Shown here in pieces: positions 2,651 to 14,637 of a stretch of DNA of 33,830 nt. Where the stretch lies: positions 1-33,830 of IMG/VR virus record IMGVR_UViG_3300041409_000342, one strand, 5' to 3'. This stretch comes from a virus. Under the pieces are notes generated by a model. The model was not told the DNA's origin. It saw nothing but the letters and a program-made list of their open reading frames with translations, and did no database searches. The stretch's first letter is position 1. The number at the start of each line of letters is the position of its first letter. The position numbers and the translations under genes are program-made.

Positions 2651-4190
2651 CACCCCCGCTGACGCCCCCGCGCTGCCGGAGAACCTCGTGACGCTGGTGG
2701 ACGCGATGGAGAGAGCGAGCGAAGCGTTCGCTGTCGAGGATCTAGAGTACGAGCGCGGCGAGACGACCTACGAGGCGTTTCAGCATGCGGTAGCAGCGCA
2801 GGAGTCTGCCCGAGCCGCCCTCGACGCCCACCTCCGCGCGCTGGTCGCGGATGGGGAACGGTGGCGCACACTGATGGCCAGCGAGCGCATTCGCGTGCTC
2901 GGATCGGCCGCTCTCGGCAATCCACACGCGCAGCTCATCGGCGTTGAGTTCTACACACGCTACAGCCCGCGCGCCATGAGTGAGACACGGACGATCAACG
3001 CGAATCACGAGTCGCTGCTGTGCGAGTGCGGGCATGAGGCGCGGATGCACAATGCGTCGGCTGGCGAGTGCTATGCTGGCGGCGATGAGGCGACGTGCGG
3101 CTGCTATGAGTTCCGCCCCGTCCCACCCGAGGCCGCGCCGCCCCGCGCGACGACGGTGGACGTAGAGTTTTGCCACGGCTTCGCTGACGCAGCGGAGCGA
3201 TACGTCTGTCGCTTCCGCAAAGGCCACGCTGGGCCGTGCCACCCGCACATCAACCGCGAGTCGTCGGTGCACCGCGCGACGACGCCGGAGCAGTGCTATG
3301 GGTGCCGCTTCGGCTATCCGCTCGATGCGCGAGGATGGCACGTAGACGACGCGCGAGCAACGTTCGGCGGTCCCTGCCCGAACCATCCCATCGTCCCCCC
3401 GCCGGAGACGGCGCGAGAGAGGCAAACACCGGACGCGGTGGCGCGCACCGCACTGTGCCGGCACGGGTACGCGGCGCACCGATGCGCTGACGCGCGCGAA
3501 CTGACCGCCCTCGCCGCGCGTCTCGCCAATCCGCCGGAACCGGAGGAGCTGCCGACGGCGCGAGAGACGCGGTGCCCGAACCCGAATTGCAACGACGGCA
3601 AAGTCGGGAATCTCGGCTGCGCCATTTGCTCGAGTGCGCCAACGCCAGACGATGTCGCAGACGAGCCGATCGGAAAGCATGGCCCCTACGGGTCGCACAC
3701 GAACACGGACGGTTCGCTCGTCCCCACTCCAGCCGCGAGCCGCGAGGAGGGGAGCGGGGACGCCGCCCTCTCAGAGAAGGCGTGGAAGGTGGTTATGGAG
3801 ATGTGCCGAGGTGGTCGATGGCGCATGAGCATTCCCCTGCATCCCGACGACAGCGACGAAATCCTCGCCACGCTCGTCCGCCGGTTCAACGAAATCCTCG
3901 CTGAGCAGGCCACCCTCACCGCCCGCCTCGCTCGTGCGGAGGGGGCATACGAGACCATCGTAGCGGAGTACAGCGAGAAGTTGACCACGCAAGCGTGTGA
4001 CTTCCTCGCCTCGAATGACCGCGACGTGGTGCAGTGGAGCCGACTACGAGACGCCGTGAACGAGTACCACGATCTGCGCCGCGACTGCCCCGACGAGGCC
4101 ACGCGTGACGAAGCATGGCTGACCGTGATGGAGTGCATGGGCTATGACCGCGCCTCGCTGTCCCCTGCGCCGACGAGGACCGGGGAATGA
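2640..4190 (+). CDS. Long patchwork Cys-rich protein, probably fused small genes
   Basis: Start GTG 2640 gives 516 residues; the frame is open further upstream but overlaps the previous gene. The protein reads as separate pieces: a helical segment (1-110); a piece starting at an internal ATG (2976, residue 113, MSETRTINA) with CECG, CGCYEF and other cysteines; a piece with CRFRKGHAGPCHPH; a piece with CYGCRFGY and CPNH; one with CPNPNCND; and a C-terminal helical part with coiled-coil features. Many start like independent phage zinc-finger proteins. Repeated TARETR/TARERQ linkers mark two boundaries. I infer serial in-frame fusion of small cassettes. Alternatively, internal starts make shorter products. 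Function unknown. Confidence 0.6.
   Translation: MAADTPADAPALPENLVTLVDAMERASEAFAVEDLEYERGETTYEAFQHAVAAQESARAALDAHLRALVADGERWRTLMASERIRVLGSAALGNPHAQLIGVEFYTRYSPRAMSETRTINANHESLLCECGHEARMHNASAGECYAGGDEATCGCYEFRPVPPEAAPPRATTVDVEFCHGFADAAERYVCRFRKGHAGPCHPHINRESSVHRATTPEQCYGCRFGYPLDARGWHVDDARATFGGPCPNHPIVPPPETARERQTPDAVARTALCRHGYAAHRCADARELTALAARLANPPEPEELPTARETRCPNPNCNDGKVGNLGCAICSSAPTPDDVADEPIGKHGPYGSHTNTDGSLVPTPAASREEGSGDAALSEKAWKVVMEMCRGGRWRMSIPLHPDDSDEILATLVRRFNEILAEQATLTARLARAEGAYETIVAEYSEKLTTQACDFLASNDRDVVQWSRLRDAVNEYHDLRRDCPDEATRDEAWLTVMECMGYDRASLSPAPTRTGE
3408..3420 (+). repeat. Dispersed repeat, copy 2 (13 bases)
   Basis: ACGGCGCGAGAGA is shared with the copies at 1418 and 3555. The next ten bases (GGCAAACACC) are a diverged form of CGCGGACACC that follows copy 1. 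Confidence 0.55.
3555..3572 (+). repeat. Dispersed 18-base repeat, copy 3
   Basis: Identical over 18 bases to 1418-1435 and in the same reading frame (TARETR). It lies at the start of the CPNPNC zinc-ribbon segment of the long patchwork protein. Confidence 0.7.
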
Positions 4191-7023: not shown

Positions 7024-7461
7024 ATGCCGACTCGCCCTCCCCGCGCGCACGTCCACGGCCAGTCACCAACGCCCCGCCCTCGCCTCTCCGCCCGCAAGCG
7101 CGGCTATAGCGTCGCATGGGAGAAGGCCAGCAAGGGATTCCTCGCCAAGCATCGCTTCTGCGAGTGCCCTGCGCACAAGGGTAAGAACGACGCACCGCCT
7201 GCGACCGTCGTCCATCACGACCCTCCGCATAAAGGCGATAAGACTCTCTTCTGGGATCGCGCGACGTGGTATGGATGGGCCAAGCCCTGCCACGACACGC
7301 ACACCGGTCGCTACGACCGACCAGAGAGCGGCAGGTCGCGCCCACGGGGGGGTGAGCGAAATCTTTCAGGCCACCCCCCTGCCGGACCGGCGGTCCCCAT
7401 TTCGTGTACGCCCCCGAGTTTTCGTGAGGGGGGGGTACCCCCCTGCCTGGAGATCGTCTAG
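7024..7461 (+). CDS. HNH endonuclease, packaging-associated
   Basis: A 145-residue protein right before small terminase, the usual place of the HNH partner of cos-type terminases. RGYSVAWEKASKGFLAKHRF precedes VVHHDPPHKGDKTLFWD (H64, H65, D66) and KPCHD (C89, H90). Compared with the canonical 'FWDRSNWQxLCKxCH', the central Asn is Thr81 and the first Cys of the second zinc pair is Ala86; the first pair is compressed to C46-E-C48. The protein may still be active through H65 and H90 but the zinc site is altered. The C-terminal 45 residues are low complexity and are encoded by the G/C-tract region thought to hold cos. The stop abuts the GTG of small terminase. Confidence 0.85.
   Translation: MPTRPPRAHVHGQSPTPRPRLSARKRGYSVAWEKASKGFLAKHRFCECPAHKGKNDAPPATVVHHDPPHKGDKTLFWDRATWYGWAKPCHDTHTGRYDRPESGRSRPRGGERNLSGHPPAGPAVPISCTPPSFREGGVPPCLEIV
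7346..7450. other. Candidate cos / packaging site region
   Basis: The stretch between the HNH core and small terminase holds G7 (7346-7352), C6 (7374-7379), inverted repeat GCCGGACCGGC (7381-7391), G8 (7428-7435) and palindrome GGGGGGTACCCCCC (7430-7443). ACCCCCCTGCC is directly repeated at 7373-7383 and 7437-7447. In HNH-containing cos phages the cleavage site usually lies in exactly this interval. No cut position can be read from sequence alone. Confidence 0.5.
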
Positions 7462-10243: not shown

Positions 10244-10458
10244 GCAAACTCCCGATGGAATCCCGCCCGCTGCGCCTCGCGCCAGAAGTGGCGCGCGTAG
10301 TCGAGAAGACGCTTGCGCCGCTCAACGGCAAGACCCTCGAGCGCGCGCAGGCCGCTGTGCTCACGGTCTATCAGTCCGGCCAGCAGATGACGATCGAACA
10401 GTGGGTGGCGAAGTACACTGAGGCCATCGCGGCGGTTGCCCAGCGAGAAGCCGCATGA
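10240..10458 (+). CDS. Small hypothetical protein
   Basis: A 72-residue protein, ATG 10240 in the stop of the previous gene and overlapping the portal start at 10455 by ATGA. It is helical, with RLAPEVARVVEKTLAPLNGK and a second helix QMTIEQWVAKYTEAIAAV. No family is recognised. The tight fit between terminase and portal suggests a packaging or procapsid accessory role, but nothing in the sequence fixes it. Confidence 0.6.
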   Translation: MSKLPMESRPLRLAPEVARVVEKTLAPLNGKTLERAQAAVLTVYQSGQQMTIEQWVAKYTEAIAAVAQREAA

Positions 10459-11801
10459 GCAGGAATTTCCACTTCCCCGTGCGTCCGTCGCCAACGCTGG
10501 CGAAAGCGGCCGCGCGCGAAGTGGAGGCCAAGGCGCTCCTCTTCACGCCGCAGACCGCCGCGTTCGAGTTCGGCGGCCTGTCGGGGATGCGCGCTCCTGG
10601 TACGAATCACGACTACGCGACCGAAGTGAAAAACGGCATGTATTCGTCCGTCATCACCTCGGCCCTCGCGTGGATGATGCGCACCTTCCCGGAAGCGCCG
10701 TGCATCGTGCAACGCCGCATCGAGAAGCGGTGGGAGGAGGTCGATGAGCACAAGCTGACGAAGCTCCTTCGGCGGCCGAACAAACGCTACGGTGGGCGCG
10801 TGCTCTGGATGGCGACCATCATGGACTTCTGCTTCGGCGAAGCGTTCTGGCTCAAGATCCGGAACGGCAACGGCGACGTGGTCGAGCTCTGGTGGGTGCC
10901 GCGCGCCCTCATCACGCCGACCCCTGACCCGGACAACCCGGGCGAGCTGGCTTACTACGCCTACGCGCCGGGCCACGGCTCACGCATCGAGTTGGCGCTC
11001 TCGGACGTCGTGCATTTCCGCTTCGGCATGGACCCCGCCAATATCCTGCGCGGCTTCTCGCCCTTGGCTGCGGTCATGCGAGAGGTCTACATCGACGACG
11101 CGGCGGGCAATTTCACGGCGGCAATTCTCAAGAATTTAGGGATCATTGGGGTGATTTTCTCCCCAAAAGACGGGACAATCCCGAAAGAGCAAGCCGCCGC
11201 GCTGAAAGAATACGTGCAGGCCAATTTCACCGGCGAGAAGCGCGCGCAGGCCATGATGTTCACCGGGGCCATGAACGCGCAGCTGCTGCAGTACAATCTG
11301 CAGGGCTTCGACGTCGGCCCGATCCGCGACATCGTGGAGGAGCGTGTGAGCGCTGCGCTCGCCATTCCCGCCGCGGTGATCGGGTTCGGCACCGGGTTGC
11401 AGCAGACGAAGGTCGGCGCCACGATGCGCGAGATGGTGAAGCTCGCGTGGCAGGGCGGGATCGAGCCGAACCAGGCGATCATGGCCGACGAGCTGGATCG
11501 CTCGCTCTTGCCGGAGTTCCAAGCGAACGCGGACCTGTTCCGGACGTGGTTCGACACGTCGCAGGTCGAGGCGCTGACCGAGTCGCCAACCGAGCGCACG
11601 GATCGCGTGCTCAAGCTCGTCAAGGAGAACGTTATCAAGGTCACGCAGGCGCAGCGCGAACTCGGGTATCCGGTGGACCCGACGCAGAACGACTACATCC
11701 GGGAGCTCACGCCGACGCCGGGTGTCCCGCCGGACAATCCGCCCCCGCCCGATCCGACCGACACGAACGCACCGCCGCCAACAGGAGCCGCCAATGCCTG
11801 A
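10455..11801 (+). CDS. Portal protein, HK97 family
   Basis: 448 residues, close to the family's usual size. The block AWMMRTFPEAPCIVQRR, FGEAFWLKIRNGNGDVVELWW, the SDVVHFRFGMDP clip entry, and the C-terminal DEHKL/EKVLKLVKEN-type helices match HK97-like portals. The GIIGVIFSPKDG and TGLQQTKVGATMREMVK segments are also typical of the stem and wing. It forms the dodecameric ring at one capsid vertex for DNA entry and tail attachment. The C-terminal tail is Pro/Asp/Asn-rich and disordered. Its end overlaps the protease start by 8 bases. Confidence 0.93.
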   Translation: MSRNFHFPVRPSPTLAKAAAREVEAKALLFTPQTAAFEFGGLSGMRAPGTNHDYATEVKNGMYSSVITSALAWMMRTFPEAPCIVQRRIEKRWEEVDEHKLTKLLRRPNKRYGGRVLWMATIMDFCFGEAFWLKIRNGNGDVVELWWVPRALITPTPDPDNPGELAYYAYAPGHGSRIELALSDVVHFRFGMDPANILRGFSPLAAVMREVYIDDAAGNFTAAILKNLGIIGVIFSPKDGTIPKEQAAALKEYVQANFTGEKRAQAMMFTGAMNAQLLQYNLQGFDVGPIRDIVEERVSAALAIPAAVIGFGTGLQQTKVGATMREMVKLAWQGGIEPNQAIMADELDRSLLPEFQANADLFRTWFDTSQVEALTESPTERTDRVLKLVKENVIKVTQAQRELGYPVDPTQNDYIRELTPTPGVPPDNPPPPDPTDTNAPPPTGAANA

Positions 11802-12468
11802 CCGCATCCCGCCGGAGACGACCCTCGCGCTCAAGTCCTTCTGCACCTTCGAGGTGAAGGACGCCGAGAAGGGGGAGGTCGAGGCGATCGTCGCCACGCT
11901 CGACGTCGTCGATAAGGACGAGGATATCATCCGGTCCGACGCGATCGCCGACGGCTCCAAGGTGACGATGTCGAGCTACGGCCACGACGCCGTGTGGGGC
12001 GCTCGCCCTGCTGGGAAGGGCAAGCTCCACATCGAGGGGAACAAGGTCGTGTTCAAGGGGCGGCTCTTCCTCGCCACCACCGACGGGCGCGACACGTTCG
12101 AGTGTTTGAAGGAGATGGGAGGCGATCAGGAATGGAGTTTCGGCTTCCGGATCCTCGGCGCCGAGGTCCCCAGCGACGACGAGCGGAAGCAGGGGGCTCG
12201 TCGTATCCTCACCAAGCTCGAGGCATTCGAGGTGAGCCCGGTGATCATCGGCGCTGGCGTGGGCACGCGCACGGTGGGCGTGAAGGCGGCGGAGGTTGTG
12301 GCGCCGCCGGTCGAGGTTCCGCCCGATCCGGCGATCGAGGCGAAGCGCCTCGCGGACGAGGAGGCCGAGACGGAGCGGCGCGCGGTGCTCATGAAGAAAA
12401 CCGCCATCGACAGCGACGGCGATCGGCGGTTCCGTCGGCCGCCAGCCGGAGTGGAGCGGCGGCGATGA
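11794..12468 (+). CDS. Prohead protease, HK97 family
   Basis: Start ATG 11794 follows AGGAG (11783-11787); the upstream frame extension lies within the portal. 224 residues. His64 in SYGHDAVWG and Ser115 in EWSFGFRI fit the His-Ser catalytic pair of U35 prohead proteases, with the usual VDKDEDIIRSDAI and KLEAFEVSPV blocks. The last 60 residues are Pro/Glu/Arg-rich and may bind scaffold or self-cleave. It cleaves the capsid N-terminal region during maturation. It overlaps the zinc-ribbon gene by ATGA. Confidence 0.92.
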   Translation: MPDRIPPETTLALKSFCTFEVKDAEKGEVEAIVATLDVVDKDEDIIRSDAIADGSKVTMSSYGHDAVWGARPAGKGKLHIEGNKVVFKGRLFLATTDGRDTFECLKEMGGDQEWSFGFRILGAEVPSDDERKQGARRILTKLEAFEVSPVIIGAGVGTRTVGVKAAEVVAPPVEVPPDPAIEAKRLADEEAETERRAVLMKKTAIDSDGDRRFRRPPAGVERRR

Positions 12469-12722
12469 GCGGCGTCTGGCTCAAGTGCGACGCGTGCAAC
12501 AAGGATCTGCGTGTGGAGGCCGATCGAGCGATGCAGCTCGCCATTCGGTTCAAGCCGTCGCTCTTCGAGCGCTCGCTCGATCAAATCCACCCGGAGGAGC
12601 GCCGCCACCGCTGCCGGTCTTGTGGTTGGGTGAACGTGTTTGTACCTTCGGCCCCAGTGGCGGCCGAGCAGCGCAACTCGCTATTGACGCCATCCTGGCG
12701 TGATGTTACGCTGAAGTCGTAG
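12465..12722 (+). CDS. Zinc-ribbon protein between protease and capsid
   Basis: 85 residues from ATG 12465. Two pairs, CDACNK near residue 9 and CRSCGW near residue 50, give a four-cysteine zinc ribbon. A helical middle (MQLAIRFKPSLFERSL) separates them. Its 3' end carries a predicted promoter (12684-12712) and a dyad, and the stop is only 31 bases before the terminator hairpin. The role is unknown; regulatory or assembly function is possible given its position. Confidence 0.7.
   Translation: MSGVWLKCDACNKDLRVEADRAMQLAIRFKPSLFERSLDQIHPEERRHRCRSCGWVNVFVPSAPVAAEQRNSLLTPSWRDVTLKS
12684..12712 (+). promoter_or_regulatory. Predicted promoter with internal dyad, before capsid gene
   Basis: TTGACG (12684-12689), a 17-base spacer, TACGCT (12707-12712) and an extended -10 TGT just before it form a sigma-70-like promoter. 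Within it ACGCCATCCTGGCGT (12687-12701) is a perfect 6-base inverted repeat around TCC, an operator candidate. Transcription would start near 12719, ahead of the intrinsic terminator at 12754. The sequence is also coding for the zinc-ribbon protein, so this is a prediction. Confidence 0.5.
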
Positions 12723-12753
12723 CCACAACCGAATTTTTCGACAGGGCCATTGC

Positions 12754-12792
12754 GGCCGGTCACGCGCGTTCCACGCGCTGGCCGGCCTTTTT
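12754..12792 (+). terminator. Strong intrinsic terminator before capsid gene
   Basis: GGCCGGTCA and GCGCG pair with CGCGC and TGGCCGGCC around the TTCCA loop: 14 pairs, one bulged C, one G-T pair. T5 (12788-12792) follows directly. It lies in the 118-base gap between the zinc-ribbon gene and the capsid frame. Transcription of head and tail genes must either read through or begin after it. Confidence 0.85.
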
Positions 12793-12840
12793 GCTTTCCG
12801 AGGCGACCAGCCATTCACCGGGACACCCGGACAGGTCGCC

Positions 12841-14313
12841 ATGCACATCGTTCTTCGGAAGGTCGGCGGGAGATTCACCCCGCTGTGGCAGTCTCGCGGC
12901 GGCGGGTCGCTGACGTTCAGCGCCGCAGGAGCCTCGCCCCTTCCTCTTGTCTCGGCGTTCGGCTGGCTCGCACTGGCGGTGATCGTGCTCGCCGTGCTGG
13001 CGTGGCTGGTCACCCACGGCTCGCTGCACGCCAGCGCGCTCCCGTTCGGCGCGTTTGGCGTCGCGGGCATGACCGACTCCGCCGCCCTCAAGGAAAAGCG
13101 CGAGAAGCTCGCGGCGAAGGCCAAGCTGTGGGGTGAGGCCGATGCCGCGAGCCTGGTGGACGGCAAGCGCGACATGTCGCAGAAGCCGCTGCTCGAGAAG
13201 CTCGGCGTCGAAAATGCCGATCAGGCCAAGTCGATGATCGATGCGCTCTACTTCGAGATCGAAGAGCTGAACGCGGACATCGACGAGATGCACCACGCCG
13301 AAATGAAGTCCGGCGTGCAGCGCGTCACCGAAGATCTCAAGCGGCCCCTCCGGGTCGTACTGCCGTCCTCGGGACGCTCGGGGCACGAGCAGCAGACCTT
13401 CGGCCAGATGGTGGTCGACTCGAAGGAGTTCAAGGGCCGCGGCCGCCGCGAGCAGTTGGCCGTCGAGATCGACATCGATCTCAAGACACTGTTGCAGACG
13501 TCTGCCGGTTGGCAGCCGCGCACGGGGAATGGCGATCGGTTCGTCGACAAGATCATCCGCCCCGTTCAGATCCTCGACCGTATTCCGACCGACTCGACGG
13601 ATCTCTTCGAGATCCCGTTCATGCTCGAGACCACGCGCACGCAGGCCGCCGCCGAGCTCGCGGAAGCCGGCACCTACGCTGAAGACGCCTTCGTGTTCGC
13701 GCGCCAGACCTCCGCCGTCCGGAAGATCGGCTCGCAGATCCCGGTCACGGACGAGCAGCTCGCCGACGTCGGCTCGATGCGCTCGCTGCTCGACAACCGC
13801 CTTCGCTTCGGCCTCGAGGCGCGACTCGACCAGCAGATCATGGTGGGCGATGGCATCTCGCCGAATCTCCAGGGTGTGTTCACGGCGTCCGGCATCCAGA
13901 CGCAGGCGAAGGGTGCCGACTCGACCGCGAACGCGATCTTCAAGGCGATGACGCTGGTCCGGATCACGGGCCGCGCCATCCCCGACACGATCGCCATGCA
14001 CGGCACCGACTGGGCGAACGTCAGGCTCGCGCAGAACGCCCAGGGCGACTACCAGTTCGGCCCACCGACGATGGTCGGTGCGGACACGATGTGGGGACTC
14101 CCGGTCGCGCAGACGGAAGCGCTGACGGCGGGCAACGCGGTCGTGGGCGCGTTCACGACCTACTCGCAGCTCCTGTACAAGAAGGGCATCGAGGTGCAGG
14201 CCGGGTGGATCGGCTCCCAGTTCATCGAGGGCAAGATGACCCTCCGTGCCGATCTCCGGGCCGCATTCGTGATCTACCGCGGGGCGGCGTTCGCGAAGGT
14301 CACCGGACTCTGA
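12841..14313 (+). CDS. Major capsid protein, HK97 fold, with in-frame N-terminal membrane segment
   Basis: The frame from ATG 12841 codes for 490 residues. Residues 77-490 (internal ATG 13069, MTDSAALKEKREKLAAKA) are a normal-sized HK97 capsid protein: an N-terminal charged coiled-coil region, then FVDKIIRPVQILDRIPTDST, the protected-loop region VRKIGSQIPVTDEQL, and C-terminal WIGSQFIEGKMTLRADLRAA. Upstream, residues about 37-57 (VSAFGWLALAVIVLAVLAWL) are one clear transmembrane helix. Ribosome binding before 12841 is weak (CAGG), and before 13069 I see none. Either the capsid starts at 13069, or a small membrane gene is fused to it. HK97-type protease would remove the N-terminal part in either case. 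Confidence 0.9.
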   Translation: MHIVLRKVGGRFTPLWQSRGGGSLTFSAAGASPLPLVSAFGWLALAVIVLAVLAWLVTHGSLHASALPFGAFGVAGMTDSAALKEKREKLAAKAKLWGEADAASLVDGKRDMSQKPLLEKLGVENADQAKSMIDALYFEIEELNADIDEMHHAEMKSGVQRVTEDLKRPLRVVLPSSGRSGHEQQTFGQMVVDSKEFKGRGRREQLAVEIDIDLKTLLQTSAGWQPRTGNGDRFVDKIIRPVQILDRIPTDSTDLFEIPFMLETTRTQAAAELAEAGTYAEDAFVFARQTSAVRKIGSQIPVTDEQLADVGSMRSLLDNRLRFGLEARLDQQIMVGDGISPNLQGVFTASGIQTQAKGADSTANAIFKAMTLVRITGRAIPDTIAMHGTDWANVRLAQNAQGDYQFGPPTMVGADTMWGLPVAQTEALTAGNAVVGAFTTYSQLLYKKGIEVQAGWIGSQFIEGKMTLRADLRAAFVIYRGAAFAKVTGL

Positions 14314-14316
14314 TCG

Positions 14317-14637
14317 GTGGCCGTCCTCTCGGAAGTCCAGTTCGTCGTCGTCAACACCGCTGCCACCGCAACACTGGTGGCAGCGCAGGCGGCGGGCGTG
14401 AAGATCCGAGTGGTCGGGCTGGTGCTCGTCAACACGACGGCGCAGTCGCTGACGTTCAAAAGCGGCGCGGCTGGTACGGCGATCACTGGCCCGCTGCCGC
14501 TCGCTGCGCTCGGCCAACTCGTTCTGCCGTTCAATCCGCTCGGCTACTTCGAGACCGCCGCTGCCACGCTGCTCGAACTGTCACTCTCCGGCGCCACGCA
14601 GGTCGGTGGCACGCTCCAATACGTCACCGTGAGCTAA
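14317..14637 (+). CDS. Virion structural protein, probable decoration or capsid-associated
   Basis: 106 residues from GTG 14317, three bases after the capsid stop. It is nearly all beta strands and short turns, rich in Ala, Thr and Leu, with TGPLPLAALGQLVLPFNPLG and a terminal VGGTLQYVTVS strand. I recall similar proteins next to capsid genes in other phages. Position and beta-rich content suggest a capsid decoration protein. There are no cysteines or charged clusters. Assignment rests on context and pattern. Confidence 0.7.
   Translation: MAVLSEVQFVVVNTAATATLVAAQAAGVKIRVVGLVLVNTTAQSLTFKSGAAGTAITGPLPLAALGQLVLPFNPLGYFETAAATLLELSLSGATQVGGTLQYVTVS

Follow-up and report, generated by a model that had tools for sequence, protein, structure and literature searches.

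A predicted membrane-anchor module ahead of the scaffold domain in the capsid protein precursor of a siphophage-type virus and some of its distant relatives

The major capsid protein of the siphophage-type virus described here is encoded with an extension of 76 codons at its N-terminal end, and an in-frame helix of membrane-span hydrophobicity ahead of the scaffold domain was found in this protein and, among the matches listed, in six other distinct capsids of 105. We think it somewhat more probable than otherwise that the long precursor anchors procapsid growth at the membrane and that the prohead protease removes the anchor together with the scaffold. The broader reading, for which the balance appears even, is that there is a group of tailed phages whose procapsids arise from membrane-anchored capsid protein, with a bipartite module on every subunit that would be cut off with the scaffold and that would have been gained, exchanged or lost repeatedly within one capsid family. 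All anchor-bearing members are metagenome contigs.

The window, that is, the whole stretch of DNA that was analysed, is a virus record of 33,830 bases, whose siphophage-type head and tail module is ordinary in make-up, with genes for the small terminase, large terminase, portal, S78 protease, capsid protein, adaptor, head closure, tail terminator and tape measure. The portal protein (10455..11801, + strand; Pfam Phage_portal, E 1.2e-36) is followed by the S78 prohead protease (11722..12468, + strand; Pfam Peptidase_S78, E 9.8e-8, and PHROG 80), which is the expected candidate for cutting the capsid precursor, and the profile matches of terminase, portal and protease are all ordinary. Between the protease and capsid genes lies a frame for a small zinc-ribbon-like protein (12465..12722, + strand) with a CxxC...CxxC pattern; this protein, with its two CxxC pairs, matched nothing in Pfam or PHROG, and similar, conserved frames are present at four of the related capsid loci, which are numbered here with the prefix L (L002, L003, L019 and L059). 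An HNH endonuclease gene is located at 7024-7461, immediately 5' of the small terminase gene. No scaffold-family match, of the kind that a separate scaffold gene would give, was obtained among the head genes of the window with Pfam and PHROG profiles, and nothing matched in an Rfam search of the whole window.

The capsid frame is open from 12715 to 14313 and contains two ATG codons, at 12841 and 13069, that are 76 codons apart and would give products of 490 and 414 residues, respectively. The capsid part matches Pfam Phage_capsid PF05065 (E 9.7e-27, 94.5 bits against a cut-off of 24.2) and PHROG 10, the major head protein, and an AlphaFold model built from 99 sequences (mean pLDDT 80) has the D3 and HK97 prohead structures as its best PDB matches (top Foldseek E 7.7e-24). 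By this model the capsid protein is of the HK97 fold, and the long form is annotated on the combined Pfam, PHROG, AlphaFold and Foldseek results as a precursor of 490 residues (12841..14313, + strand). Helices 81-104 and 126-167 of the predicted structure correspond to an N-terminal helical scaffold (delta) domain, which is placed at 13069..13450 (+ strand, end approximate) from these helices and from the aligned starts of L002, L003 and L008-L011. The extension itself, the putative anchor module (12841..13068, + strand), is delimited by its in-frame codon bias, by a start position that agrees with that of relatives, and by similar extensions elsewhere. Both features on which the preliminary description was built, a capsid frame 76 codons longer 5' of 13069 and a helix at residues 37-57, are borne out, with the hydrophobic segment now at residues 36-54 and the modelled helix at residues 40-59.

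The hydrophobicity of the extension and its codon usage both depart from chance. The Kyte-Doolittle average over 19 residues peaks at 2.63 for residues 36-54, a value reached by none of 5000 dinucleotide shuffles and by none of 370 off-frame blocks of 76 codons taken from the genes of the window. GC at third codon positions is 0.86, a level reached by about 0.001 of shuffles, and the GC3-GC2 difference was matched by 0.0002 of shuffles. The codon-usage log-odds per codon is +0.14 in the capsid frame, the two remaining + frames giving -0.30 and -0.38; the signal is weakest in the first part of the extension. Phages, plasmids, IMG/VR, GTDB genomes and PDB sequences were searched directly with the extension and yielded no relative, none of the sequenced phages in the collection searched has a matching extension, and a scan of bacterial genomes with the capsid protein found no capsid relative. 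An origin of the extension by copying from elsewhere in the window was considered and rejected: the matches were short and due to chance, and a two-sequence test of the one to the gene at 14317 gave E 0.02.

An apparent fusion could also be produced by a one-base contig error that joins a separate small membrane protein gene to the capsid gene, since a shift of one base would give an ATGA stop-start overlap, and an ATGA is indeed present at 13069, while small membrane proteins are encoded near the head genes of some relatives. As far as 13068, however, the codon phase remains that of the capsid frame, and in-frame extensions occur on other contigs, one type of them on several contigs, which makes such an error highly improbable.

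The choice between the two starts can be approached through the leader of the gene, where a conserved GC-rich hairpin (12754..12787, + strand) was identified by folding energy and by a consensus helix across seven sequences; the region folds at -31.5 kcal/mol (z -3.2). All close relatives have such a hairpin just ahead of their capsid start; a short T run often comes after it and a CGACAGGGCC motif often before it. By inspection a similar hairpin precedes the long starts of L019 and L035, and the loci with the hairpin are the window and the leaders of L002, L003, L008-L011, L019 and L035. The hairpin may act as a leaky terminator or may stabilise the mRNA. The nearest relatives by capsid identity (L002, 71%; L003, 61%; L008-L011, 56-60%) start at the residue equivalent to 13069 and are without the extension. 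Counted by hand, the distance from hairpin to start is about 22-57 nt in the relatives and, in the window, about 52 nt for the ATG at 12841 and about 280 nt for that at 13069; as the former lies at the usual distance, the additional 228 nt, a length divisible by three, lie between an ordinary start site and ordinary first residues. The energy of the ribosome-binding duplex is -4.8 kcal/mol at 12841 versus -2.6 at 13069, compared with -6.1 to -9.0 kcal/mol at seven starts in close relatives that have no extension and -6.6 to -8.2 for the long starts of the other extension-bearing members. The remark in the preliminary description that 13069 has no ribosome-binding site ahead of it is thus confirmed, and leader position and binding energies together favour the start at 12841, despite its own weak site.

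Translation of the long form is further indicated by the other extension-bearing members. Purifying selection acts on the extension in two pairs of related members: dN/dS is 0.25 between L082 and L085, with 1.15 and 0.80 for the two remaining frames, and 0.16 between L035 and L044, versus 1.08 in one other frame, the second having no countable synonymous change. The extension of the window has no close relative, so that selection is seen in other members alone. In L092 the protease stop and the long start share 17 nt, and in L093 the long start lies 5 nt past the stop. There is no ATG from the helix to the scaffold domain in L082, L085 and L059, and the long form is therefore expected to be the main product in these members. 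The suggestion that the long form is translated is thereby made very likely, through leader position, codon bias, selection in relatives and gene overlap in a relative, whereas the accompanying idea that a small fraction of the capsid protein is membrane-tethered does not agree with the missing ATG in L082/L085 and L059. In the window, the long precursor from 12841 is with high probability the only capsid protein made. That the short form from 13069 is the sole product, and the upstream stretch an untranslated leader, would accord with the conserved capsid N-terminus beginning at 13069 and with nearest relatives that have no extension; it seems very improbable against the in-frame coding signal, the leader position, the missing ribosome-binding site at 13069, the selection on related extensions and the lack of an alternative ATG in L082, L085 and L059.

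The distribution of the trait was examined in the open frames upstream of 141 capsid loci, window counted, which represent 105 distinct capsid cores and derive from the best 80 capsid relatives per scan; the related extensions came to light upstream of distant capsid genes. A membrane-type helix is present in 7 of the 105 distinct capsid cores among the matches listed, with hydrophobicities of 2.45-2.64 that are clearly set apart from the next best value, 1.49, so that the cores form two classes. Conservation of the upstream helix, on which the preliminary description had made its proposal depend, accordingly fails in the nearest relatives and holds in the wider family. The seven cores (the window, L035, L044, L019, L059, L082, which equals L092, and L085, which equals L086 and L093-L096) fall into five lineages, with L035 and L044 together, L082 and L085 together, and the window, L019 and L059 each alone, and on a quick tree of capsid cores well-supported branches force a minimum of five changes in the anchor trait. 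Judged from these sequences, the scatter would be explained by any of three histories: several gains, exchange of 5' ends, or a single early gain followed by many losses. The locus with the value of 1.49, L025, was kept out of the anchor group as borderline; its hydrophobic stretch (3869-3997), followed by HTHGG, lies directly before the capsid start and may be a decayed or variant anchor. Upstream of the L059 capsid gene is a ClpP-type protease (2717-3493), while the other anchor-bearing members examined have S78, so the anchor is not bound to one protease type. In L093 (1778-1880) and L092 (1758-1860) the N-terminus of the portal protein is basic and partly hydrophobic (VIQWLRKAFSRM.HAGAAAIF) and could be a further membrane contact. 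Small separate membrane genes were considered as unfused partners of the module in relatives and rejected, the candidates being scattered, unrelated and without a common motif.

The module has a bipartite architecture. It begins with the segment MHIVLRKVGG (12841..12870, + strand), whose motif [IV][IV]LRK[VL]xG was confined, in a six-frame scan of all loci, to the extensions of the window, L019 and L035. A hydrophobic, transmembrane-like helix follows at residues 36-59 (12946..13017, + strand), according to the Kyte-Doolittle profile and to the model, in which residues 40-59 are helical with a pLDDT of about 82, with a flexible stretch between them and scaffold helix 81-104. Comparison of the extensions revealed a second short hydrophobic patch, LPFGAFGVAGM, ahead of the scaffold helix (13039..13071, + strand); a patch of about 11 residues lies 9-17 residues past the helix in all six extensions checked and in none of six ordinary starts compared. 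The N side of the helix is basic in all six (+2 to +5) and the C side ranges from 0 to -2, and for each of them the positive-inside rule predicts an N-in/C-out orientation, which would place the capsid domain outside the cytoplasm unless helix and second patch form a re-entrant hairpin. The topology predicted from the charges would thus be wrong for a simple anchor, and this is a real difficulty, the main one, for membrane anchoring.

The same features bear on a reading of the module as a Sec signal or signal anchor that exports the capsid protein from the cytoplasm. A basic start, a hydrophobic core and a neutral or acidic stretch after a helix of membrane-span length are common to all six extensions examined, and ASA and AQA motifs occur past the helix in two. 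Packaging of DNA, however, is cytoplasmic, and the terminase, portal and protease of this phage look ordinary, and export is the least probable of the explanations considered. The chief alternative, unlikely but well above the others, is that the long form is made and the module acts as an extra scaffold inside the procapsid, where the helices would cluster in the core until the protease removes them, with no membrane involved. The scaffold domain of HK97 sits within the procapsid (PMC10275583), the module in the model adjoins the N-terminal end of the scaffold domain, and the charge pattern misfits a simple anchor. The inward direction of the scaffold domain also makes anchoring through it geometrically awkward. 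On the other hand, the helix has in every case the length and hydrophobicity of a membrane span, a basic N-terminal flank is typical for membrane proteins, and exposed helices of such a kind are prone to insert or aggregate. The module might also be cargo, a membrane peptide freed by the protease that would act in lysis, phage exclusion or membrane passage at ejection; many copies of a bipartite hydrophobic peptide would presumably be freed per capsid, but the extension matched no holin, exclusion or other family in Pfam, PHROG or sequence searches, and this role is improbable.

Under the preferred reading, anchoring at the membrane, the 490-residue precursor from 12841 would present a basic segment, a membrane-span helix, a short turn and the second hydrophobic patch, followed by the scaffold domain. 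The N-terminal module would tether the capsid subunits, and with them the procapsid as it grows, to the cytoplasmic membrane on its inner face, a re-entrant hairpin of helix and second patch would return the capsid domain to the cytoplasm, and the S78 protease would remove anchor and scaffold together at maturation. Membrane insertion, assembly at the membrane and proteolytic removal are all inferred steps, and the nearest relatives, which do without the extension, count against them. If the reading is true, a removable anchor carried by the capsid protein itself would offer a route to membrane-sited assembly that is both new and simple in genetic terms, and the N-terminal end of the capsid protein would be an exchangeable targeting module; from the recurrence in distant relatives, some phages may pin growing shells to the bacterial membrane via the shell protein.

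In the titles and abstracts of the open-access papers brought up by full-text searches, no capsid protein of a tailed phage was described as having an N-terminal membrane helix that can be removed, and by comparison with known systems a capsid protein that is itself the membrane contact for procapsid growth would be new. HK97 gp5 shares with the window protein the HK97 fold, a helical N-terminal scaffold domain and an upstream protease gene, but its scaffold domain has 103 residues and the paper on it describes no membrane-spanning helix (PMC10275583), whereas the window has 76 residues with a hydrophobic helix ahead of that domain. The closest solved structure by fold is the prohead of phage D3 (PDB 9osb, Foldseek E 7.7e-24); its solved chain, which is what was compared here rather than the D3 gene, spans the capsid fold without an anchor module. 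The major coat protein of filamentous phages, pVIII, has a transmembrane helix during assembly (PMC3185693), but it is unrelated in fold and virion type and its helix is not a removable part of a precursor. A few phages are known to have procapsids associated with the membrane. In T4 the procapsid grows at the cytoplasmic (inner) membrane and is released after cleavage, with portal gp20 and the chaperone gp40, not the capsid protein, as the membrane contact (PMC9958956). In the siphophage SPP1, open procapsid precursors are found at the cell membrane in dependence on portal gp6, and the 2026 study states that the molecular mechanism of this contact is unknown (PMC13212656). Since both T4 and SPP1 start their procapsids at the membrane via the portal, the membrane is a plausible place of assembly, and the window phage would differ from SPP1 in that the contact, dependent there on gp6, would be provided by the predicted anchor of the capsid protein itself.
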